From the NCBI RefSeq assembly GCF_021295345.1, contig NZ_JAIMJB010000003.1:62001-126000 (forward strand): a stretch of 64,000 nucleotides of DNA. The letters run 5' to 3'. The DNA is from Motilimonas eburnea (GTDB lineage: Bacteria; Pseudomonadota; Gammaproteobacteria; Enterobacterales; CBDFNC01). The position numbers and the translations under genes were made by a program. This document shows positions 36,173 to 49,257 of the stretch, in pieces. Position 1 is the stretch's first letter, and each line of letters starts with the position of its first letter. The notes below the pieces were generated by a model. The model did no database searches. It was not told the origin of the DNA and saw only the letters and a list, made by a program, of their open reading frames with translations.

Positions 36173-36279
36173 AAGTAACGTTTTCTTAAACGAATATCTG
36201 CCGCAGGGATGCGGCAGTTAAGCCATCATCAATTATTGATGGATGATTTCACGGCGTTTCGTATAAGAAAATGTTACTT
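36173..36279. repeat. MITE-like repeat, copy A
   Basis: A 107-bp non-coding element between ilvN and chrA. Ends AAGTAACGTTTTCTTAAACG and its near-exact inverse (TTCGTATAAGAAAATGTTAC) form terminal inverted repeats of about 22 bp. Inside are a CTGCCGC...GCGGCAG hairpin and an ATCATCAATTATTGATG palindrome. Two further copies lie at 37587 and 41147. Confidence 0.85.
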
Positions 36280-37472: not shown

Positions 37473-37586
37473 TTATACCACTACCTAAAAAAGCCAAATA
37501 GCGCATAATAAGACAGTTTTATGACAGTTAGATAACAAATCCCCCTCACCTTTACTTTCAATCAGCGAATAAATAGTTCTTAAGCG

Positions 37587-37697
37587 ATAAGTGGCGATTT
37601 CTGATACGAATATCTGCCGCAGGGAAGCGGCAGTTCAGTCATCATCAATTATTGAAGGAAGATTTCACGGCGTTTCGTATCAGAAAATGCGACTTAT
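37587..37697. repeat. MITE-like repeat, copy B
   Basis: A 111-bp element in the same orientation as copy A. Terminal inverted repeats start ATAAGTGGCGATTTCTGATA and end with the inverse TATCAGAAAATGCGACTTAT. The internal CTGCCGCAGGGAAGCGGCAG hairpin is intact. It lies between chrA and the copA module, 33 bases past the stop of the 21-residue peptide gene. Confidence 0.85.
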
Positions 37698-37729
37698 CTA
37701 TGCATGCGGCATCAATGCGCTTTCCCTCA

Positions 37730-37795
37730 TTACTTGCCCCAAAACCACCAGACAATCAAAATAATCAGCGCGATACCTATCAAATTAACCCACAT
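37730..37795 (-). CDS. 21-residue single-pass membrane peptide downstream of copA
   Basis: A 21-codon frame begins one base after the copA stop codon. AAGGAG, inside the copA 3' end, is 7 bases before its ATG, an ideal ribosome-binding site, so the two are translationally coupled. The product is MWVNLIGIALIILIVWWFW followed by GK: one hydrophobic helix with an unusual WWFW cluster. It resembles, from memory, the membrane anchors of small cupredoxin proteins that neighbour copA in related genomes, but lacks any cupredoxin domain. It may be a copper-ATPase accessory peptide or a truncated remnant. Confidence 0.6.
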   Translation of the reverse strand: MWVNLIGIALIILIVWWFWGK

Positions 37796-37796
37796 A

Positions 37797-40553
37797 TCAA
37801 GGCTCCTTATGTGTTGTAAGGTTTGCTTTAGGTGAAAACCAGCGTAGTCGATTGGCATTGCTCACTACCGTCACCGACGATAGGGACATAGCCGCGCCGG
37901 CAATGATGGGGCTAAGTAACCAACCGGTAAAGGGAAACAACAAGCCCGCCGCAATGGGAATGCCTAAAGAGTTATAAATAAAGGCGCCCCACAAGTTTTG
38001 CTTAATATTGGTCATGGTGGCACTGCTGATAGCAATCACATCGGAAATACCGTGCAGCGAGCTGCGCATTAAGGTGATATCGGCGCTTTCAATCGCCACA
38101 TCGGTGCCGCCGCCGATGGCAAAACCGACATCGGCTTGCGCCAGTGCGGGCGCATCATTAATGCCATCGCCCACCATGCCAACTACCTTGCCTTGGGCTT
38201 GCAAGCGCTTGATCCATTCAAGCTTATCCTGCGGTAGCTGATTAGCATGAAAAGCATCAATCCCCGTTTGCTGGGCGACTTGCTCGGCCGTGGCCGCGTT
38301 ATCACCGGTTAACATCACCACTTCAATGCCTTGCTGATGAAAACGCGCAATTGCCGACTTCGCATCCTCACGGATAGGATCATTAATGGCAAAAATAGCT
38401 TCGACTTGATCGCCTAAAGCTAAAAAGACCAAGGTGCTGGCCTGCTGCGCTAGCTTCGCCAAGGCCTCACGGCAATCAATGTCAAATTGCGCCATCAACT
38501 GCTCATTGCCCAATAACACCCGCTGGCCTTGATAACTCGCTTGCACGCCAAGACCCGTTAATGAGGTAAAGTCAGTGACGGTGACCGAGTCAGCCTTGGT
38601 TTTTGCGTTATCCGCATACTCCAACAAGGCCTGCGCTAAGGGATGATTCGCCCCTTGCTCCACAGCGGTAACAATGTCTAGCAGTGGCTTATCTTGGGAA
38701 AGCGCATGATATTGCGTGACCTTAGGTTTGCCTTGGGTAATGGTGCCGGTCTTATCCAGTACCATTACATTGATTTCGCTGGCACGCTGCAAGGCGTCAC
38801 CATGGCGAATTAAGCCGCCAAATTCCGCCGCTTTGCCCACGCCTATCATGGTCGAGATGGGGGTGGCTAAGCCCAATGCGCAAGGGCAAGCGATGATCAG
38901 CACCGCCGTTGCCGTCACTAGCATATAAACCAAACTGGGCGCGGGGCCAAAATTGTACCAAGCCAATGCGGTGAGAATGGCAATGATCATCACGCTAGGC
39001 ACAAAGATCGCCGACACGCGATCGGCCAAATGACTAATCGGCGGCTTAGAGTTTTGCGCTTGGCTCACCAAATTAATGATTTGTGCCAGTACGGTTTCGC
39101 TGCCGACTTGCTTAGCCTCAAGTACAATACTGCCCGAGCCGTTCACCGTGCCCGCGGCAACCTTGTCACCCACTTGCTTAGCTACAGGGATGGGCTCCCC
39201 CGTCAACATGGCTTCATCTATGCTGGTTTCACCTTCGATCACAACGCCATCCACGGGCAGTTTTTCGCCAGCGCGCACTCGCACTAAATCACCAATAATG
39301 ACTTGCTCTACCGGGAGTGAAACTTCTTCACCATTGCGGATCACCCGAGCGGTTTTTACCCGTAAATCCAATAAGCGTTTAATCGCCTGCGAGGTGCGCC
39401 CCCTTGCTTTTAGCTCTAAGGCCTGACCTAAATTAATCAAACCTAAGATCATCGCCGTTGCTTCAAAGTACAAGTGACGGCCACTGCTTGGCAGCCACTC
39501 GGGCGCCAGCACCACCAGCATCGAATACAGCCACGCCGTGCCAGTGCCCAGCGCAATTAAGGTGTCCATGGTGGCGTTTCGCGCAGTAAACGCACGCCAT
39601 GCGCCGGTAAAAAAGTGTTTGCCGCTGTGCCATAAGATCAAGCCAGTTACCACGCCCACCACCAGCCAGCTAAGCTGCTCGCTGCTGGTGTTCACCTGCA
39701 TTGAGCCACCCAGTAAACCATACAGCATCAACGGAATACCAAGCCCTAGCCCGATCCAGCTTTGCTTGATTTTACTTCGATATTCTTTTGCTTCACGGGC
39801 CTCTTTTTCTTGTTCGGCCACTTCACTATCAAAGATTTCTTTACCGTCATAGCCCGCGCCTTGGATGGCCTTGATCAGGGTGTTGGCATCATAAATGGAA
39901 CTAATACTGGCGGTGCGGTTAGCAAAGTTAATGCTGACGGATCCCGACTGAACCTCAGGCAGGGCATGCAGGGCTTTTTCTATGGTATTGACGCAGCTGG
40001 CACAAGTTACGCCGATTAATGACAAATTAACGATTTGGGTATGAACTAAAGATTCAGACTCAGACGCAACCTTTACGGACTCTACTTCCTTGACTGCTGG
40101 CTTAGCACTACAAACCGCTTTGGTGACTTCCCCTTGCGGTGCTTGATTCTGCTGCTGATAACCCAGCTCGGCTAAGATCTGTTCTACATAACTTTCACTT
40201 AAACAGCTCTCAAGGGTTAAACGCTGCGCCGCAATATCTAACTTAACCTGAGCCGATGGATCGTCTTGTAAGATCCGCTTGGTAATTTTATTGACGCAAG
40301 ACTGGCACGACACCTTAGCCGTGTTGGTTTCATAATGCTGCGCCGTAGCTAGCTTAGCTTGGTAGCCCGCGCCATTAATAATTTGAATCACTTCGGCTTG
40401 GCTTAATACCGAGCGCACCACGGCAAAGGTCTTAGTTGCATCAACCGTGAGATCTACATTCGCATCACGCTCAGTAAGGGCACTGCGAATTTTGTTAACG
40501 CACTTCATGCAATTAACGCCCGCCAGCGTCATGGCCATGGGATTATTTGTCAT
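37797..40553 (-). CDS. copA: Copper(I)-translocating P1B-type ATPase
   Basis: 918 residues. Three N-terminal heavy-metal-associated domains carry CMKC, CQSC and CASC at about residues 15, 85 and 182. Eight transmembrane helices follow, with CPCALG near residue 553 in the sixth, the phosphorylated Asp in DKTGT near 598, TGEP, and [10 protein letters not shown] near the end. The CPC and C-terminal '[16 protein letters not shown]' (M..S and YN/N motifs) fix Cu(I) specificity. It exports cytosolic copper. Overlaps the merR-type gene by 11 bases and is followed by the 21-residue peptide. Three metal-binding domains is more than the usual one or two. Confidence 0.95.
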
Positions 40554-40989
40554 GTTCTTGCTCCTTTACATCAAGCTCCGCGCCCTGCTGCGACCAATTG
40601 GCAATCAAACAACAAATCGCTTGGCCGTTAGGCGCCATATCCGGCTTAGTGGCCCAATCGGCAAAGGTGGTTTCCATTAACTTAAGGTGGCGCTGCAACT
40701 GAGCGATTTTGTCTTTGGTGTCAGCAATTTTATCACTGAGCATTTGCCTCACTTTAGGGCAAGGCGAATCCTCACGTTGTGAGTGTTCAATAATGTCAGC
40801 AATGTCCTGCAGACTAAAACCGATACTGCGTGCATGATTGATAAAAATAAGCCGCTCTAATGCCGCGCTGTCGTAACGCTTATAGCCATTACTTGGGTCT
40901 TTCGTCGCGCTGAGTAACCCTTTGCGGGTGTAAAAGCGCACGGTTTCAGCCGTGACACCGGCCGCACGGGCAATTTCATTGGTCAGCAT
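40543..40989 (-). CDS. MerR-family metal regulator of the copper module (CueR-like)
   Basis: 148 residues. [20 protein letters not shown] is the MerR winged-helix start, and '[40 protein letters not shown]' completes it. A coiled-coil dimer helix runs from about 80 to 120. The C-terminal ligand region is unusual: Cys in SPCPKV (about residue 77) and CCLIANW near the end instead of the tight CueR C-x7-C loop. It is co-transcribed with copA and overlaps it, so copper or a related soft metal is the likely inducer. A dyad upstream of the gene is the probable binding site. Confidence 0.85.
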
Positions 40990-41015
40990 GATGTATCTCC
41001 ACCTAGCTAATACAA

Positions 41016-41035
41016 GTTGTATTTAAGCATACAAC
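41016..41035 (-). promoter_or_regulatory. Putative MerR-type operator dyad
   Basis: GTTGTAT (41016-41022) and ATACAAC (41029-41035) are perfect 7-bp inverted repeats with a 6-base spacer, 27 bases before the regulator's start. On the minus strand TTGACC stands about 17 bases upstream of the dyad. Dyads of this size in a stretched promoter are where MerR proteins bind. Confidence 0.65.
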
Positions 41036-41146
41036 CTAGGTGTAACACACAGGTCAAGGAGATATTTTAAATGGAAATATGATATCTGCTATTCAGAAAA
41101 GAGAGACTTTGAATTTAAGCGAAAAGCGTTTAAACAGAATATTCTG

Positions 41147-41257
41147 ATAAGTGACATTTTCTTATACGAAACGCCGTGAAATCTTCCATCAATAATTGAT
41201 GATGACCTAACTGCCGCTTCCCTGCGGCAGATATTCGTCTAAGAAAACGTCCCTTTT
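41147..41257. repeat. MITE-like repeat, copy C (inverted)
   Basis: A 111-bp copy in opposite orientation to A and B. It starts ATAAGTGACATTTTCTTATA, ends with an imperfect inverse (CTAAGAAAACGTCCCTTTT), and holds the same internal hairpin CTGCCGCTTCCCTGCGGCAG. It lies between the merR operator and the DUF4202 gene. Confidence 0.85.
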
Positions 41258-41312
41258 CATTCGGCTTGCCCAATAATATCTTTGGCAGCTGCAGCATAGA
41301 CAATCGCCGCCC

Positions 41313-41906
41313 TTATTGGTCGGCCAGCGCCTTTTCGATCAGGGGAACCAAAGGCTGAGGCAAGGTGATATTACCGGCTAGCACAAAGGCATGAGCCTCT
41401 GGCGACATCTTTTTCCACGTGCGCTGTAAAATGCCTATCCATTTTTGCTCATCGTAATCGGGCTTAGTGGCGGCAAACGCCAACATGTAATGCTCAATAA
41501 ACACCAAACTGGCGACATCTTCTACCAGCTGGCTATCTGGGTTTTTCTTAATTTGTTTTTTTGCCACAGCGGCATAAACCCGTTGCTGCGCATCGTCGTC
41601 ATAGCCCACTTGCTGCATCAGCTGCGTGGCTTGCTCGGCGTGAAATAAATACAAGGCACTGCGCCATTGATGATAACCCTGCTTGTTCATCGGGAAATCG
41701 CTACGCGGCGAACACCAGCGTTTAATATGCTGCGCTCTTACTGCAATTTGCATTAACTCGTCAGCATCAGGCGCAAAGCGCGTTAGCATGTCGGTCATAC
41801 GCTGTGAATACAGCAGCTCTTTCGGCCAACTTTTACCGTCAAACTCTTCTTGGTTAGGATCTTGGCTATTCGCTTGATCAATTAACTCAATAACTTGGCT
41901 AAACAT
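41313..41906 (-). CDS. DUF4202 family protein
   Basis: 197 residues from ATG 41906 (GGAA upstream; ATG 41918 also possible). Recognised as DUF4202: 'ELIDQANSQDPNQEEFDGKSWPKELLYSQRMTDML' followed by 'IAVRAQHIKRWCSPRSDFPMNKQGYHQWR'. The conserved His-x-x-x-x-Trp and regularly spaced acidic residues resemble an HD-like helical domain, but function is uncharacterised. Its 5' side carries one of the two 52-bp repeats that flank fic. Confidence 0.8.
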   Translation of the reverse strand: MFSQVIELIDQANSQDPNQEEFDGKSWPKELLYSQRMTDMLTRFAPDADELMQIAVRAQHIKRWCSPRSDFPMNKQGYHQWRSALYLFHAEQATQLMQQVGYDDDAQQRVYAAVAKKQIKKNPDSQLVEDVASLVFIEHYMLAFAATKPDYDEQKWIGILQRTWKKMSPEAHAFVLAGNITLPQPLVPLIEKALADQ

Positions 41907-41933
41907 AAGGCATTCCATTTATCTAGTATTCTC

Positions 41934-41985
41934 GGTATTTTATGCAGCTAGCCAAGATTAAGCTAGTTTGCTGTTATGCCAAGGG
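41934..41985. repeat. 52-bp direct repeat, left copy (fic flank)
   Basis: From GGTATTTTATGCAGCTAGCC to ...CTGTTATGCCAAGGG; 49 of 52 bases are identical to 43297-43348, and the central 35 bases are exact. The pair brackets the fic gene and its promoter region (1,363-bp period). Confidence 0.85.
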
Positions 41986-42198
41986 ATTTCAGTAAGACAA
42001 TAAACTAACCGCAGATAAGATTAAATTGACTGTGTTTGTGACAGGTAAATTTGTTAAATCGTACACTAACTCTAGGTAGACAGTGCAAATGCTCCTAGCC
42101 TTAGCTCATAAAATCATTACCGAGTAAGATTCGATTCAAGGTAAATAAATGAGTTAATGTTAGAATATCGGCAATGTTTTCAAATCAAGGTCTCGTAA

Positions 42199-43218
42199 AT
42201 GCAGCCTCCATTTACCCTCAATAGTCACATTTTGTCGCTGGTGGCCGATATCAGTGAGCGCTTGGGTAAAATCTCTGTCACTCATTCAAATGACATAGAT
42301 CTGCGCCTAAGACGGATAAACCAAGTGCGTACCATTCAAGGTACATTGGCGATTGAAGGTAATGAGCTAAGCGAAGCGCAGGTTACAGCCATACTCGCAG
42401 GTAAACGAGTATTAGCTCCGATAAAAGAAGTACAAGAAGCGAAGAATGCGATTGACGTTTACGAGCGCCTAAGTGATTGGGATCCACAAGTCGAATCTGA
42501 TTTACTTAAAGCGCATCAGCGTCTAATGATGGGCATGATTGACTCAGCAGGTCGTTATCGCAATAGTGGTGTCGGCGTGATGAAAGACGGGCAAGTGATC
42601 CATATGGCTCCCCCCGCAGATCGCGTTGCAACACTGATGCGTGATTTATTTGCATGGTTAAAAACGAGTGATGATCATCCACTGATTAAAAGTTGTGTAT
42701 TCCACTACGAATTTGAATTCATTCATCCATTTTCCGATGGTAACGGGCGTATGGGTCGGCTTTGGCAAACGCTCATTCTAAGCCACTGGCAACCGCTGTT
42801 TGCTGTCTTACCGGTTGAAAACTTGATCCACCAGCACCAACAAGCTTATTACCAAGCTATCAATCAAAGTACACGTGATACCGACAGCCGTGCCTTTATC
42901 GAATTTATGCTAACTATGATTAGGCATACCTTGGTTGAATTAGAACAAACTGACCTTAATTCTGCTGCCCCCCAAGTTAGCCTACATGTTACCCCCCAAG
43001 TTAAATTATTGCTCAGTCAGGTGGCAGGGGAAATGAGCCGCGAGCAGTTACAAAGCGCTTGTGAGCTAAAAGATCGTAAATCATTTACGGCAAGATACCT
43101 AAAACCCGCCCTTGAAGCTGGTTATATAGAAATGAGCATTCCAAATAAACCTCGCAGCCGCTCACAGCGTTACAGGCTCACCAAATTAGGTGATGAACTA
43201 AAAAGAAGGCCAGCATAA
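42199..43218 (+). CDS. Fic-domain AMP transferase (class II, self-inhibited)
   Basis: 339 residues. The Fic core motif HPFSDGNGRMGR is complete, with catalytic His176. An N-terminal inhibitory helix has T49-L-A-I-E53-G, fitting the (S/T)xxxE(G/N) motif of class II Fic proteins, so activity is held in check by its own glutamate. The C-terminal 90 residues form a winged helix ('EQLQSACELKDRKSFTARYLKPALEAGYIEMS'), probably DNA- or partner-binding. Fic enzymes transfer AMP onto protein Ser/Thr/Tyr. It is alone (no adjacent antitoxin) and is flanked by 52-bp direct repeats, indicating acquisition as a unit. Confidence 0.93.
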   Translation: MQPPFTLNSHILSLVADISERLGKISVTHSNDIDLRLRRINQVRTIQGTLAIEGNELSEAQVTAILAGKRVLAPIKEVQEAKNAIDVYERLSDWDPQVESDLLKAHQRLMMGMIDSAGRYRNSGVGVMKDGQVIHMAPPADRVATLMRDLFAWLKTSDDHPLIKSCVFHYEFEFIHPFSDGNGRMGRLWQTLILSHWQPLFAVLPVENLIHQHQQAYYQAINQSTRDTDSRAFIEFMLTMIRHTLVELEQTDLNSAAPQVSLHVTPQVKLLLSQVAGEMSREQLQSACELKDRKSFTARYLKPALEAGYIEMSIPNKPRSRSQRYRLTKLGDELKRRPA

Positions 43219-43296
43219 AAAGAACAGCAGCCCAGTAAAAGCGCCTACCTCGGTTGGTTTTATGGCCTCAAAAATACCGCCCCCCCAAAAATCCGA

Positions 43297-43348
43297 GGTA
43301 TATTATTCAGCTCGCCAAGATTAAGCTAGTTTGCTGTTATGCCAAGGG
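43297..43348. repeat. 52-bp direct repeat, right copy (fic flank)
   Basis: Second copy of the repeat at 41934-41985, with three substitutions. It ends on the AAGGG that serves as ribosome-binding site of the cupin gene. Confidence 0.85.
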
Positions 43349-43354
43349 GGCAAC

Positions 43355-43744
43355 TTGACGGTTATTTCAAAACAAAATTCCGAGCATTATCACTGGGGTG
43401 AAGGGTGCGATGGTTGGCATCTGGTTAAATCCAACACCTTAAGCGTTATCCAAGAGCGCGTACCACCCGGCGGCAGTGAGATACGCCATCTGCACCAACA
43501 CGCAGAGCAATTTTTCTACGTGCTGTCTGGCACTGCAACCTTAGAGGTCGATGGTGAAACCCACCACTTAACGGCCTATCAAGGACTGCATGTCCCCCCT
43601 AATACGCCTCATCAGTTAAGCAACCTAGGCCAAGAGGATTTACATTTTATCGTTACTTCAACTCCGCCTAGTCATGGTGATAGGGTGATGATTGATTCAC
43701 CACTAGTCGAAGCAGGAACTGACAACACCTTACTAAAAACTTAA
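43355..43744 (+). CDS. Single-domain cupin protein
   Basis: 129 residues when started at the TTG at 43355, which has AAGGGGG 4 bases upstream; the longer frame from another TTG (43331) lies in the repeat and is less likely. The cupin motif 1 is P-P-G-G-S-E-I-R-H-L-H-Q-H-A-E-Q-F-F-Y-V-L-S-G; motif 2 is 'HVPPNTPHQLSNLG'. Three His and a Glu can bind a metal. Such small cupins act as mannose-6-phosphate isomerase-like or regulatory proteins; the substrate is unknown. No partner gene is adjacent. Confidence 0.75.
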   Translation: MTVISKQNSEHYHWGEGCDGWHLVKSNTLSVIQERVPPGGSEIRHLHQHAEQFFYVLSGTATLEVDGETHHLTAYQGLHVPPNTPHQLSNLGQEDLHFIVTSTPPSHGDRVMIDSPLVEAGTDNTLLKT

Positions 43745-43936
43745 ACTATTGATTTAGCTTAGATTATAAGGTTTAACTGATTTAATTGGCATATCAAAGA
43801 AGCCTGTTCTGAATGGTTAAATAGCTGTTTACCTTATATAAAAACAGTGTGATCATTAAGAATATGTTTTTTAAGTCCCTTTGGGACTTATCATCCTATT
43901 CTGAAATCTAATAGCAATTAACGGTGAGAGGGAACA

Positions 43937-44287
43937 ATGAGCTACGATTTAAACTTCTGGAAAGAAGAAAAGCCGATGAACGTTGAACCGCTACAAATAT
44001 ATAAAGATCTCTGTGAAGGGCTAACAGTTGAGGGACTTTGTATAATACCAGCTCCTGATTTTTTAAATCGTATAGCAGAAGCGTTTCCAAACTCAGAAAT
44101 AGAAGAAGATGGATCTGTCTTTTGGGAAAATGACGAGAACTCTTTCCATGCGACCAGTGGAACCCAGCACGTGCGAGTTGATTGTTACGGTACAATTGGA
44201 GAATGGATGAACGTATTCATCGATATAGCAAACGAGTTTGATATGCCTCTTTACGACCCACAAGTTAATGAGAGATTTTCTGGCTGA
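43937..44287 (+). CDS. Immunity-like hypothetical protein (116 aa)
   Basis: 116 residues with GAGAGGGAAC directly before the ATG. It begins MSYDLNFWK, a start shared by a group of small uncharacterised proteins often found beside polymorphic toxins (recalled, not searched). The body is acidic, with 'FHATSGTQHVRVDCYG' as a beta-rich core. No signal, helix anchor or catalytic motif is seen. No toxin gene is next to it, so it would be an orphan immunity gene; that is inference. Confidence 0.55.
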   Translation: MSYDLNFWKEEKPMNVEPLQIYKDLCEGLTVEGLCIIPAPDFLNRIAEAFPNSEIEEDGSVFWENDENSFHATSGTQHVRVDCYGTIGEWMNVFIDIANEFDMPLYDPQVNERFSG

Positions 44288-44551
44288 ATCACAACAAATA
44301 TGCGACAAACATTTTAAATACGGAGATAGATCTAAGTTCAACTGAACAACTAGCGATCACGGTGGTAGAGCGAGGTGCTGGTCTAAACAGTTAGAGGCGC
44401 TTTCTTATGAATCATCACAGCTTACTTAAGTTTGTGATTATCTAGAGCAAAGTTTAAAAAACTAAGAATGCCCCACAAAAATCTAAAAGTGCCGTAGAGC
44501 CGACACTGTATTCAGAGCTTGGATTATCCTCGAAGTTTTCTGAGTAAAATC

Positions 44552-44941
44552 CTAAGGCACACCCTGCTCTAAGCTCGGCATCTCATTCAAACTATCAAGC
44601 CAAGTTAGCTTGGTGGATGTATAGAGATTAACCTCGGCGGGTAGCGCCTCTGTTTGGTCTAACGCGCCAAGGTAGAGCATATTGAGCCCGTTGAAGCGCT
44701 GGTTTTGATTGTAAATCGGGCTACAGCATTGGCTGCACACAAACTTAGTTGCCCTGTCTGTCAGCGTGATAGATTTTAGTTGGCCGCTGAGTAGTTTGAA
44801 GTCATTAGCTAGGCTGACGGCATAGGTGGAAAATGACGCGCCATTCATTTTACGGCATAGATTACAGTGGCAGTTGACCACCTTTTTTACCTCGCCCAAC
44901 AGCTCAAATTTCACATCCTGACAATGGCAACTTCCCTGCAT
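44552..44941 (-). CDS. GFA-family (Mss4-like) zinc protein
   Basis: 129 residues from ATG 44941. Cys motifs CHC (residues 5-7), CHCNLCRK (24-31) and CSQC (about 69-72) bind structural zinc in the glutathione-dependent formaldehyde-activating enzyme fold. Despite the name, most members of this family have unknown activity. It lies alone between the immunity-like gene and the ATPase gene. The 264 bases on its right side before it hold no visible gene. Confidence 0.88.
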   Translation of the reverse strand: MQGSCHCQDVKFELLGEVKKVVNCHCNLCRKMNGASFSTYAVSLANDFKLLSGQLKSITLTDRATKFVCSQCCSPIYNQNQRFNGLNMLYLGALDQTEALPAEVNLYTSTKLTWLDSLNEMPSLEQGVP

Positions 44942-45172
44942 CACTCAACCTCGCGAATATTTTTAGCATTAAAATAATAACTTAGCATAAGTGGAGAGAC
45001 TGGACACTCATTGTTTGGATTATTGCTGCAAACTCTAGGGCGATTAGGTTTATCGCAGCATGACTGCTGCTCCTACGCTAGATTAATTTGGTCAGTAGCA
45101 AGCAGCCGAAAGCACAGACATTCACTCGACTTAACCATGGCTAACATCACTCTAATAAGAATCAATGTTCGT

Positions 45173-45202
45173 AAAGTTACTGTAAAAAAAGTTACTGTAA
45201 AA
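45173..45202 (+). repeat. Tandem 15-bp repeat in the ATPase upstream region
   Basis: AAAGTTACTGTAAAA occurs twice in immediate tandem (45173-45187, 45188-45202). The rest of 44945-45268 holds no gene; a 69-codon frame there only translates the repeat. The repeats may be operator half-sites for the ATPase gene. Confidence 0.6.
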
Positions 45203-45268
45203 ATATTTACATTAACTTAATTCCCACCTACCATGTTAGATAACGATGAAGTGATACGGAGGCCTAGG

Positions 45269-46624
45269 ATGGACAAGTTTTATAATCGTCAAGCAGAGCT
45301 GAGTGCCTTGCAGGCTGTTTCAACTAACCTGACGGAAACAAAAGGTCAGTTAAGTGTCATGGTTGGCCGTCGGCGTGTTGGCAAAACCCGCTTGCTCAAT
45401 GAAGCCTTCCAACGTGGTAATATCCCCTTCCTTTACCTATTTATCAGCAGAAAAAGTGAAGCGTCTTTGGTGGCTGAGTTTGCGGAGATCATCAAAAATG
45501 AGCTAGGGGCTAAGTTTTTCCAGCCGCAATCTCTTAGGGATATTATTGATTATCTGTTAGATCACACCAAGAGCACGCCGTTAACCGTGGTTATTGACGA
45601 GTTCCAAGACATAGATATTGTTAATTCCAGTTTGTTTTCAGACATACAAAATTTATGGGATAGCAATAAACGAAACGCCATGATCCACCTCGTTTGCTGT
45701 GGTTCTCTTTACAGCATGATGACCAAGATCTTCAAAGGTAAGGATGAGCCGTTATTCAATCGTGACGATCGCTTTTTTAAGATCCAGCCTTTACAACCCT
45801 CGTATTTTGCCGAGATCATGCAAGATCATCAGCAATTTGATGCTGAGAATATGCTGCGCTGGTGGTGCCTATCTGGGGGGATCCCTAAATATCTCGAGTG
45901 GCTAACGCGATTTTCAGCTCAAAGTGACGACTTATTTGAGGCCGTGATCTCAGAGTTTTCACCTTTGATTAAGGAAGGTACACACCGACTGGTGGAGGAT
46001 TTTGGCTCTGAGCATCGCGTTTATTTTGATATTTTAGGCGCCATCTCCAAAGGCCATACTAGCCGAGCAAAAATCGAGAACTTCTTAAATATGAGCGTTG
46101 GCGTGCACCTAGAAAAGCTTGATGACGTCTTTGATGTCATCACCAAAAAGCGCCCCATTAGCTCAAAAGAAAACTCTCGCGATATTCGCTACGCTATTTC
46201 AGATCCTTTCTTAAACTTCTGGTTTAGGTTTATCCATGCCAACAAAAGCGCCGTTGAAATGGAAAACTACGATTATATCAGACGCTACATAGCGCGTGAC
46301 TTCGACGTCTATTCAGGGCTTGAACTTGAAAATCTGTTCACCGCGATTTTGGTTGAATCTAAACAGTTTGGCAAAATTGGCGGCTATTGGGATGCCAAAG
46401 GGCACAACGAGATTGATATCGTTGCCATCAATGATTTAGATAAGAAGGTGCTGATTGCCGAAGTAAAAAGGCAGCAAAAGCGCTATAGCGAAACAAAATT
46501 GATTGAGAAATCCCACCAGCTATTACAAAAGATGAACCTAAAAGGCTACCAGCTCGAATACAGAGGCTTTTCGCTAGATAATCTAGTAACGGTAATGGAA
46601 GAATATAAAGCACCAGCAAAATAA
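45269..46624 (+). CDS. Archaeal-type ATPase with DUF234/PD-(D/E)XK-like C-terminus
   Basis: 451 residues from ATG 45269, which has GGAGG 6 bases upstream. An AAA+/STAND-like NTPase with Walker A VGRRRVGKTRLL (about 28-40) and Walker B TVVIDEFQDI (about 106) is followed by sensor 'CCGSLYSMM', a winged-helix region ('GHTSRAKIENFL'), and a C-terminal DUF234 domain. The tail holds EIDIVAI...KVLIAEVKR, the E/D-x-n-E-x-K pattern of PD-(D/E)XK nucleases. Such proteins are common in archaea and patchy in bacteria, suggesting horizontal transfer. Function is unknown; a nucleic-acid-related or defence role is possible. Confidence 0.88.
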   Translation: MDKFYNRQAELSALQAVSTNLTETKGQLSVMVGRRRVGKTRLLNEAFQRGNIPFLYLFISRKSEASLVAEFAEIIKNELGAKFFQPQSLRDIIDYLLDHTKSTPLTVVIDEFQDIDIVNSSLFSDIQNLWDSNKRNAMIHLVCCGSLYSMMTKIFKGKDEPLFNRDDRFFKIQPLQPSYFAEIMQDHQQFDAENMLRWWCLSGGIPKYLEWLTRFSAQSDDLFEAVISEFSPLIKEGTHRLVEDFGSEHRVYFDILGAISKGHTSRAKIENFLNMSVGVHLEKLDDVFDVITKKRPISSKENSRDIRYAISDPFLNFWFRFIHANKSAVEMENYDYIRRYIARDFDVYSGLELENLFTAILVESKQFGKIGGYWDAKGHNEIDIVAINDLDKKVLIAEVKRQQKRYSETKLIEKSHQLLQKMNLKGYQLEYRGFSLDNLVTVMEEYKAPAK

Positions 46625-46659
46625 GCATTTTTAGCTGATGATTGAGGCTTCCACTCAAC

Positions 46660-47127
46660 CTACTCACTTAAAGTATGAATGATCTGATTACTGCTGCCGC
46701 GCCATTTAAGGCTCGGGTCGGCGAGTTCTTGCTCGAATGGGCCGTCGATCAGCACATCCACTAATTCCACCACTTTTTGCTGGGCTGGGCTAAGCTCGGC
46801 CAAGGTGTAGCCCGTCCAGCACCAGATATCTTTGCCTTGGGTGCGCGCTTTGACTTGCTGCAATAGATCTAACACGGCATCGAGGTTGTTGGGGTGCAGC
46901 GGGTCGCCGCCAGAGAGGGACAAGCCGCGGCGCTTGATCCTAGGATCGTTAAGATCCTTGATGATGGTGTCTACCATGCTTTGATCAAAAGGCTGGCCCG
47001 CATCGCAGCGCCACGTGGCTTGGTTGTAGCAGCCCTTGCAGGCATGCTCACAACCCGACACAAACAAGGTACAGCGGGTGCCGAGCCCATTTACCACATC
47101 CACGCTGTAATATTTTTGATAATGCAT
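46660..47127 (-). CDS. nrdG: Anaerobic ribonucleotide reductase activase
   Basis: 155 residues. The radical-SAM cluster is C26-x3-C30-x2-C33 in SGCEHACKGCYN; GTRCTLF and SLSGGDPLHP complete the NrdG signature, and overall it closely follows E. coli NrdG. It uses an iron-sulphur cluster and SAM to generate the glycyl radical on NrdD. The gene begins 9 bases after the nrdD stop, so both are one operon. Confidence 0.95.
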   Translation of the reverse strand: MHYQKYYSVDVVNGLGTRCTLFVSGCEHACKGCYNQATWRCDAGQPFDQSMVDTIIKDLNDPRIKRRGLSLSGGDPLHPNNLDAVLDLLQQVKARTQGKDIWCWTGYTLAELSPAQQKVVELVDVLIDGPFEQELADPSLKWRGSSNQIIHTLSE

Positions 47128-47136
47128 CAGCTTAGC

Positions 47137-49257
47137 TTAAAGATGTTTAACACGGCGCTGCACTTCTTCTTGCTTGCCGTCGTTAAATGGCCTTGCGTCA
47201 GGGCTACCTAAGTAACCACAAACACGACGCGTCACTGATACCGTTGCAGGGTTATGATTGCCACAAGACGGACAGGTGAACCCCTTACTGGTGCAATCGA
47301 ATTCGCCAGTAAAGCCACAATCGTAACATTCATCTATCGGCGTGTTGGTACCGTAATAAGGCACGCGCTCAAAGGCGTAATCCCACACATCTTCTAGCGC
47401 TTCAAGGTTGTGCTGCATATTGGGGTATTCGCCGTAGCAAATAAATCCGCCATTAGTGATATCTGGGTAAGCCATTTCAAAGTCGATCTTGTCAAATGGG
47501 TTGACCTTTTTCTCCACATCAAGATGGAAACTGTTGGTGTAATACCCCTTATCGGTAACACCATCAATCACGCCAAAGGTTTTGGTATCGAGCTTACAAA
47601 AACGGCTACAGAGGTTTTCACTTGGCGTCGAATATAGGCTAAAGCCATAGCCTGATTCTTGCTTCCACTGGTCGGTCGCGGCGCGTAAGGTACGCACGAT
47701 ATTCAGGGCTTTTTCACGCAGCTCATTATCGTCGTACACGTGGGTATCAGTGCCATACAAGGCTTGTACGGTTTCATGTAAGCCGATGTAACCTAATGAA
47801 ATAGAGGCACGGCCATGTTTGAAGATCTCGCTGATATCATCATTGGGTTTGAGCCTTACGCCGCAGGCACCTTCCATGTAAAGAATCGGCGCAACGCGGG
47901 CTTTAACGCCTTCCAAACGGCTAATGCGTGAATCTAGTGCCGCCTTGGCAATGGCCAAACGCTTATCTAAGATCTTGTAAAAACGGCGCTCACTGCCCTT
48001 GGCTTCAATGGCAATACGCGGCAGGTTTAGGCTCACCACCCCTAGGTTATTGCGCCCTTCGTGGATCAGCTCGCCATCTTGTTCATATACGCCTAAAAAG
48101 CTGCGACAACCCATCGGGGTCTTGAACGAGCCCGTCACTTTCACTATTTGTTCGTAATTGAGAATGTCGGGGTACATGCGCTTAGACGCAGACTCGAGCG
48201 CCAATTGCTTAATGTCGTAGTTAGGATCGCCCGGCTTGTGATTCAGCCCGCCTTTGATGGCAAACACTAGCTTAGGGAAAATTGCAGTTTTCTTGTTTTT
48301 ACCTAAACCAGCTATGCGGTTTTTCAAAATCGAGGTTTGAATTAAGCGCGCCGCCCAGCTGGTGCCAAGGCCAAAACCAAAGGTCACAAACGGCGTTTGA
48401 CCGTTAGCGGTGTGTAAGGTGTTGACTTCATATTCTAGGGACTGAAACGCATCGTAACACTCTTTTTCGGTGCGATTGCGAGCAAAGCCTTCGGCATCGG
48501 GTACTTGCCATTCGTTCGCCAGCGCCACGTTTTTCTCGTAGCTGGCTTCCACATAAGGGGCAAGTACTTCATCAATGCGGTTGATAGTGGTGCCGCCATA
48601 AATATGGCTGGCCACTTGGGCAATAATTTGCGCCGTCACAGCAGTGGCCGTAGCAATGGATTTCGGTGTTTCAATTTCCGCGTTACCCATTTTAAAGCCA
48701 TGGGTCAGCATGCCGTTTAAGTCAATCAACATGCAGTTAAACATAGGGAAAAACGGCGCGTAATCGAGATCGTGATAATGAATTTCGCCCTTCTCATGAG
48801 CCTTGACGATTTCTTTTGGCAGCATATGACGGGTAGCGTAGTGTTTAGCGACTATGCCCGCTAACAAATCGCGCTGAGTCGGGATCACCTTGCTGTCTTT
48901 ATTGGCGTTTTCATTCAAGATAGAGGCGTCACTTTGCTCCACTAAGCCACGAATTTGCATGGCTAAACGGCCCTTTTTCTCCCGCACCGAATCGCGGTCG
49001 TGGCGATACTCAATGTAATGGCGTGCCACCTCTTTGTAGTCGCTGGCCATCAATTGGTTTTCAACCGTGTCTTGCAGCTCATGAATATCCACTTCATAGC
49101 GCTGAGCGAGCTCTTGGGCTACATTTTCGGCAATGGTTTGGGCGTAGCGCTCATCGGGCTCAAGCACGTTTTCCATGGCACATAATACGGCAGCTTTAAT
49201 TCGGTTAAGATCAAAAGGCACACGCGCGCCATCGCGCTTTATGACGACAGGTTTCAA
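47137..49257 (-). CDS. nrdD: Anaerobic ribonucleoside-triphosphate reductase
   Basis: 706 residues if started at the TTG at 49257, which has AGGAG 7 bases upstream (LKPVVIKRDG aligns with E. coli VMKRDG); an ATG at 49287 lies inside an NrdR box and has no such site. ATP-cone domain (1-95), barrel with active-site Cys, and the C-terminal zinc site CYDCGFTGEF..CPSCGNHNP. The glycyl radical Gly is in RRVCGYLGSP. It makes deoxynucleotides without oxygen. Two NrdR boxes and one FNR box precede it. Confidence 0.95.
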   Translation of the reverse strand: MKPVVIKRDGARVPFDLNRIKAAVLCAMENVLEPDERYAQTIAENVAQELAQRYEVDIHELQDTVENQLMASDYKEVARHYIEYRHDRDSVREKKGRLAMQIRGLVEQSDASILNENANKDSKVIPTQRDLLAGIVAKHYATRHMLPKEIVKAHEKGEIHYHDLDYAPFFPMFNCMLIDLNGMLTHGFKMGNAEIETPKSIATATAVTAQIIAQVASHIYGGTTINRIDEVLAPYVEASYEKNVALANEWQVPDAEGFARNRTEKECYDAFQSLEYEVNTLHTANGQTPFVTFGFGLGTSWAARLIQTSILKNRIAGLGKNKKTAIFPKLVFAIKGGLNHKPGDPNYDIKQLALESASKRMYPDILNYEQIVKVTGSFKTPMGCRSFLGVYEQDGELIHEGRNNLGVVSLNLPRIAIEAKGSERRFYKILDKRLAIAKAALDSRISRLEGVKARVAPILYMEGACGVRLKPNDDISEIFKHGRASISLGYIGLHETVQALYGTDTHVYDDNELREKALNIVRTLRAATDQWKQESGYGFSLYSTPSENLCSRFCKLDTKTFGVIDGVTDKGYYTNSFHLDVEKKVNPFDKIDFEMAYPDITNGGFICYGEYPNMQHNLEALEDVWDYAFERVPYYGTNTPIDECYDCGFTGEFDCTSKGFTCPSCGNHNPATVSVTRRVCGYLGSPDARPFNDGKQEEVQRRVKHL

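Follow-up and report, generated by a model that had tools for sequence, protein, structure and literature searches.

How did a single fic gene come to lie between two nearly identical direct repeats, with genes for a DUF4202 protein and a cupin on either side, in the marine bacterium Motilimonas eburnea? The arrangement was found in a 64,000-nt stretch of contig NZ_JAIMJB010000003.1 (hereafter, the window) and was analyzed against a comparison set of four Motilimonas genomes, namely, that of the window itself (G000), its sister Motilimonas sp. E26 (G001), G002 and G003.

Layout of the fic locus

The locus comprises the following parts, in window coordinates:

41313..41918, minus strand: intact DUF4202 gene, 201 aa, the left neighbor (Pfam PF13875, E 2.8e-72)
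41934..41985, plus strand: left 52-bp repeat, in the DUF4202 upstream region; ancestral-type sequence, agreeing with both G001 copies at the three sites that distinguish left from right
41986..42198, plus strand: AT-rich fic leader, 213 bp, 33% GC, with one weak promoter-like site at 42038-42067
42199..43218, plus strand: intact fic gene, 339 aa, class II type by motif (Pfam Fic and Fic-like_C)
43216..43263, plus strand: decayed stub of the hsdR 5' end, collinear with the fic-hsdR junctions of two Vibrio genomes (G324 and G537)
43264..43296, plus strand: spacer of 33 bp with a C7 tract
43297..43348, plus strand: right 52-bp repeat, source of the cupin leader and of most of its ribosome-binding site
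43355..43744, plus strand: cupin gene with a TTG start, the right neighbor (Cupin_2, E 1.1e-19); its orthologue lies at the single-repeat junction of G001

The two direct repeats, with a start-to-start spacing of 1363 bp, are identical at 49 of 52 positions, which is far beyond chance, given that nothing else in the window, searched on both strands, matches the left copy better than 29/52. All three mismatches fall within the first 17 bases, so that the last 35 bases are identical, and at these sites it is the right copy that deviates, the left copy having the same sequence as the two in G001. Alignment and the list of open reading frames (ORFs) bear out an earlier note on this DNA, which described the repeats as bracketing 1.3 kb with fic alone and the left copy as lying upstream of the leftward DUF4202 gene: fic is the sole ORF of at least 80 aa in the 1311 bp between the copies (41986-43296). 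The note also had the cupin gene obtain its ribosome-binding site from the right copy, which holds for most of that site, the AAGGG of AAGGGGG being the last bases of the repeat. The cupin ORF start as originally listed, at 43331, falls inside the repeat, and comparison with the sister genome sets the start at the TTG at 43355.

The core of the repeat occurs at two sites in the window's genome, both of them here, and at two in G001, and a search of the four Motilimonas genomes found none away from the DUF4202/cupin locus. Because the core is confined to this locus and a 45-bp version of the repeat lies upstream of a second, full DUF4202 gene in G001, the 52-bp sequence is the leader that locally precedes DUF4202; it is not an attachment site scattered through the genome. 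The same count, two copies in each of the two genomes, rules out the repeat as a dispersed element. An Rfam search of the region returned nothing apart from one chance miRNA match under its gathering score.

Likely origin of fic in a type I restriction-modification operon

The Fic domain of the encoded protein is recognized with 81 bits against a cut-off of 24 (PF02661). The catalytic motif, HPFSDGNGRMGR, fits the pattern HPFx(D/E)GNGRxxR, the criterion for class II Fic (Fido) AMP-transferases, and TLAIEG at residue 49 fits the N-terminal inhibitory motif (S/T)xxxE(G/N) of the same class, such that the protein is predicted to be self-inhibited. It stays far below the curated cut-off of the SoFic equivalog model (NCBIfam NF046030; 72.9 bits against 550 bits). 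The Fic protein of PDB entry 4RGL, a distant homologue, gives a nearly full-length match (residues 2-332, E 3.9e-104), and the search of phages yielded distant relatives only, none covering 80% of the query. The ratio dN/dS is ~0.07 in comparison with the G324 gene and 0.11 on the end branch, the value of the operon-borne homologues. By these sequence measures, fic is intact and under purifying selection, a functional-looking orphan next to an hsdR stub that has decayed; the gene is conserved as an orphan, and its product presumably acts as an AMP-transferase on some target.

In a tree of 19 fic homologues, the window gene groups with those of the Vibrio genomes G324 and G537 (100/99), within a larger clade (100/99) that also includes G399 and Shewanella aestuarii; these nearest four, the other members of the clade, are all located in hsd operons, that is, in type I restriction-modification (R-M) operons. 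The gene order is hsdM-hsdS-fic-hsdR in G537, hsdM-hsdS-two genes-fic-hsdR in G324, hsdM-hsdS-fic-DUF4268-hsdR in plasmid pPN3F2_1 of Shewanella aestuarii, and hsdM-hsdS-fic-two genes-hsdR in plasmid 2 of Vibrio rumoiensis, and the Fic proteins of these four operons are 61-84% identical to that of the window.

The two nearest relatives, G324 and G537, share more than the gene itself: in both, hsdR comes directly after fic, and at the collinear position in the window, the ~45 bp following the fic stop codon align with the beginning of the hsdR coding sequence, with the ATG lost and frameshifts present. When the 51 bases that open each of the two hsdR genes were compared with the entire 64-kb window, this collinear site was the best in each case, scoring 40.5 and 33.5, versus 30 and 26.5, respectively, for the next unrelated place. 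In a shuffle test, the end-to-end score was reached by 0 of 5000 shuffles, and in a purely local, weaker test, by 14 of 5000. Unlike in the operons, fic stands alone in the window, where hsdM and hsdS are absent, hsdR is reduced to a decayed 45-bp stub, and the leader is different. Upstream of fic, no hsdS remnant was detected, the collinear scores being at chance level, and searches of plasmids, of 394 genomes from the order and of 227 from the Vibrio-like genus gave no match for the 213-bp leader; hence, the left edge of the foreign DNA is undefined, which counts against the explanation that we favor below.

A parent hsd operon elsewhere in the window's genome was considered and rejected, with no HsdR relative found there at E 1e-10. 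In G003, there is a type I R-M operon without fic (L122, G003:C1:335220-338381), whose HsdR is 67% identical to that of G537.

Taken together, the clade of operon-borne relatives and the collinear stub indicate that fic is an orphaned fragment of a type I R-M operon and not a purpose-built cassette. This origin is the observation newly made here; the paper that a literature search on Fic with type I R-M operons returned goes no further than listing fic among the R-M genes of Histophilus somni. The locus is a clear example of how an R-M operon can decay until one Fic gene survives, still under selection. If the pattern is confirmed in more strains, the Fic proteins of such operons may have a function independent of restriction.

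The locus in other Motilimonas genomes

The gene orders between ilvIH and nrdG differ in all four genomes. The window has ilvIH-chrA-copA-cueR-DUF4202-repeat-fic-repeat-cupin...nrdG; G001 has ilvIH-chrA-DUF4202-TauE...copA-cueR-DUF4202 remnant-repeat-cupin-ORF-nrdG; G002 has ilvIH-chrA-DUF4202-ORF-nrdG; and in G003, nrdG directly follows ilvIH. With four differing orders, the ilvIH-nrdG interval is a variable region of the genus.

The informative comparison is with G001, where the same locus was found without fic. Its DUF4202/cupin junction contains the repeat exactly once, adjoining the cupin gene, which supports the proposal of the earlier note that the ancestral order was DUF4202/repeat/cupin. 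The DUF4202 gene at this junction survives only as a truncated remnant, interrupted by a stop codon and a frameshift, a deletion of 484 bp having removed, among other sequence, its 3' part. G002 and G003 have neither fic nor the repeat. Far from being a constant feature of the genus, the window-type fic is absent from the three other Motilimonas genomes, the Fic protein that G001 does encode being a different one, 28% identical.

At synonymous sites, the window and G001 have diverged almost to saturation in ilvI (1.74), chrA (2.13) and nrdD (1.40), little in copA (0.34), cueR (0.57) and nrdG (0.54), and to an intermediate degree in the cupin gene (0.79); between G001 and G002, the divergence is small (ilvI 0.11, DUF4202 0.24). 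These values suggest a mixed history of the block, in which segments (window 37584-48626) would have been exchanged between Motilimonas lineages or species.

Gain or loss of fic between the repeats

The arrangement is probably best explained by horizontal acquisition: a fragment of a type I R-M operon would have come to lie in the DUF4202/cupin intergenic region, with the local 52 bp present on both sides. Its route into this Motilimonas lineage would have been homologous recombination with the local leader sequence at one end or both or, alternatively, the uptake of DNA followed by homology-facilitated illegitimate recombination. Either a circle bearing a homologous leader or taken-up linear DNA, attached through homology at one of its ends and by illegitimate joining at the other, would leave a leader on each side. 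With the leader duplicated, DUF4202 would keep its upstream region in the left copy, and the cupin gene its ribosome-binding site in the right one, and the remainder of the hsd operon would either never have been brought in or have been deleted. Homology-facilitated illegitimate recombination, with one homologous and one illegitimate end, is described for naturally competent bacteria and for E. coli conjugation (PMC3240628); at the present locus, it would leave foreign DNA beside a retained, duplicated stretch of homology. The case is one of ordinary horizontal gene transfer, with an orphaned piece of an R-M operon at a variable chromosomal locus.

The earlier note had proposed that fic and one repeat were added as a module, by recombination or by site-specific insertion. 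We infer recombination as the route, gain and not loss as the direction, and enzymatic activity for the protein. The site-specific variant, in which fic would be a mobile cassette moved by a recombinase using the 52-bp repeat as its attachment site, does account for an empty site with one copy and a filled site with two, and repeat-bearing sequence also flanks, on both sides, an 8.5-kb accessory block of G001. We nevertheless regard it as very unlikely: the repeat is confined to one locus in four genomes of the genus, the module contains no recombinase gene (none among the ORFs of 41986-43296), its end is not a defined one but the decayed hsdR stub, and the closest relatives of fic reside in hsd operons. 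Still less credible is a transposon-type insertion that created a 52-bp target duplication and has since lost its transposase. In its favor are an insert between direct repeats and a known empty site, but the target duplications of transposons are usually far shorter than 52 bp, and no terminal inverted repeats have been reported beside the copies.

Parsimony over the four genomes, with G001 alone being informative, favors gain in the window's lineage, at about two chances in three. The preference is not stronger because there is a single informative genome and because the divergence between the left and right repeats (3/52) is not below that between the left repeat and G001 (3/52); the duplication may date back to the point at which the two copies of the block diverged. 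Repeat divergence was also considered as a clock and set aside, the differences being too few to choose between gain and loss. At each of the three mismatches, G001 has the base of the left copy, a state compatible with either direction.

The opposite course is that fic, or the whole hsd operon, already lay between the repeats in the common ancestor of the block, and that G001 lost it precisely through recombination between them. The 35 identical bases in the direct repeats favor such a precise deletion, and loss through this stretch in G001 would give the same two structures; the equal repeat divergences are in keeping with it, and the 484-bp deletion is another at the same G001 locus. It requires, however, a gain and a loss in place of one gain, and G002 and G003 are also without fic; we consider it rather unlikely, yet a serious alternative. 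In either direction, the locus is an example of the repeat-flanked gain or loss of a gene at a variable locus.

Accessory DNA is bracketed by leader copies in two Motilimonas genomes, with fic in the window and a TauE-to-cueR block of ~8.5 kb in G001. It is conceivable, if improbable, that the DUF4202 leader is a recurrent landing site, a conserved regulatory sequence that may serve as portable homology and admit unrelated cargo without breaking either neighbor.

Other features of the region

A dispersed, strongly palindromic intergenic element of ~115 bp, which forms a long hairpin and has ends like GATAAGT...ACTTATC, is present in ~11 copies in the genome. Three of the copies bracket chrA and copA-cueR in the window:

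36178-36279, minus strand: palindromic element
37589-37698, minus strand: palindromic element
41140-41255, plus strand: palindromic element

The copy near DUF4202 had no Rfam match. In G001, the deletion that truncates DUF4202 ends inside a copy of the same element (L012 15540-15640).

Farther to the right, an AAA ATPase/DUF234 gene (window 45233-46624) matches the PADLOC candidate defense family PDC-S27; no such gene was seen at the corresponding position in the three other genomes of the genus analyzed here. The DUF1852/MetE-like/TauE block, which in G001 sits within the ilvIH-nrdG interval, has a transposase-like gene nearby in the window's genome (L066 194-1282, contig G000:C12).
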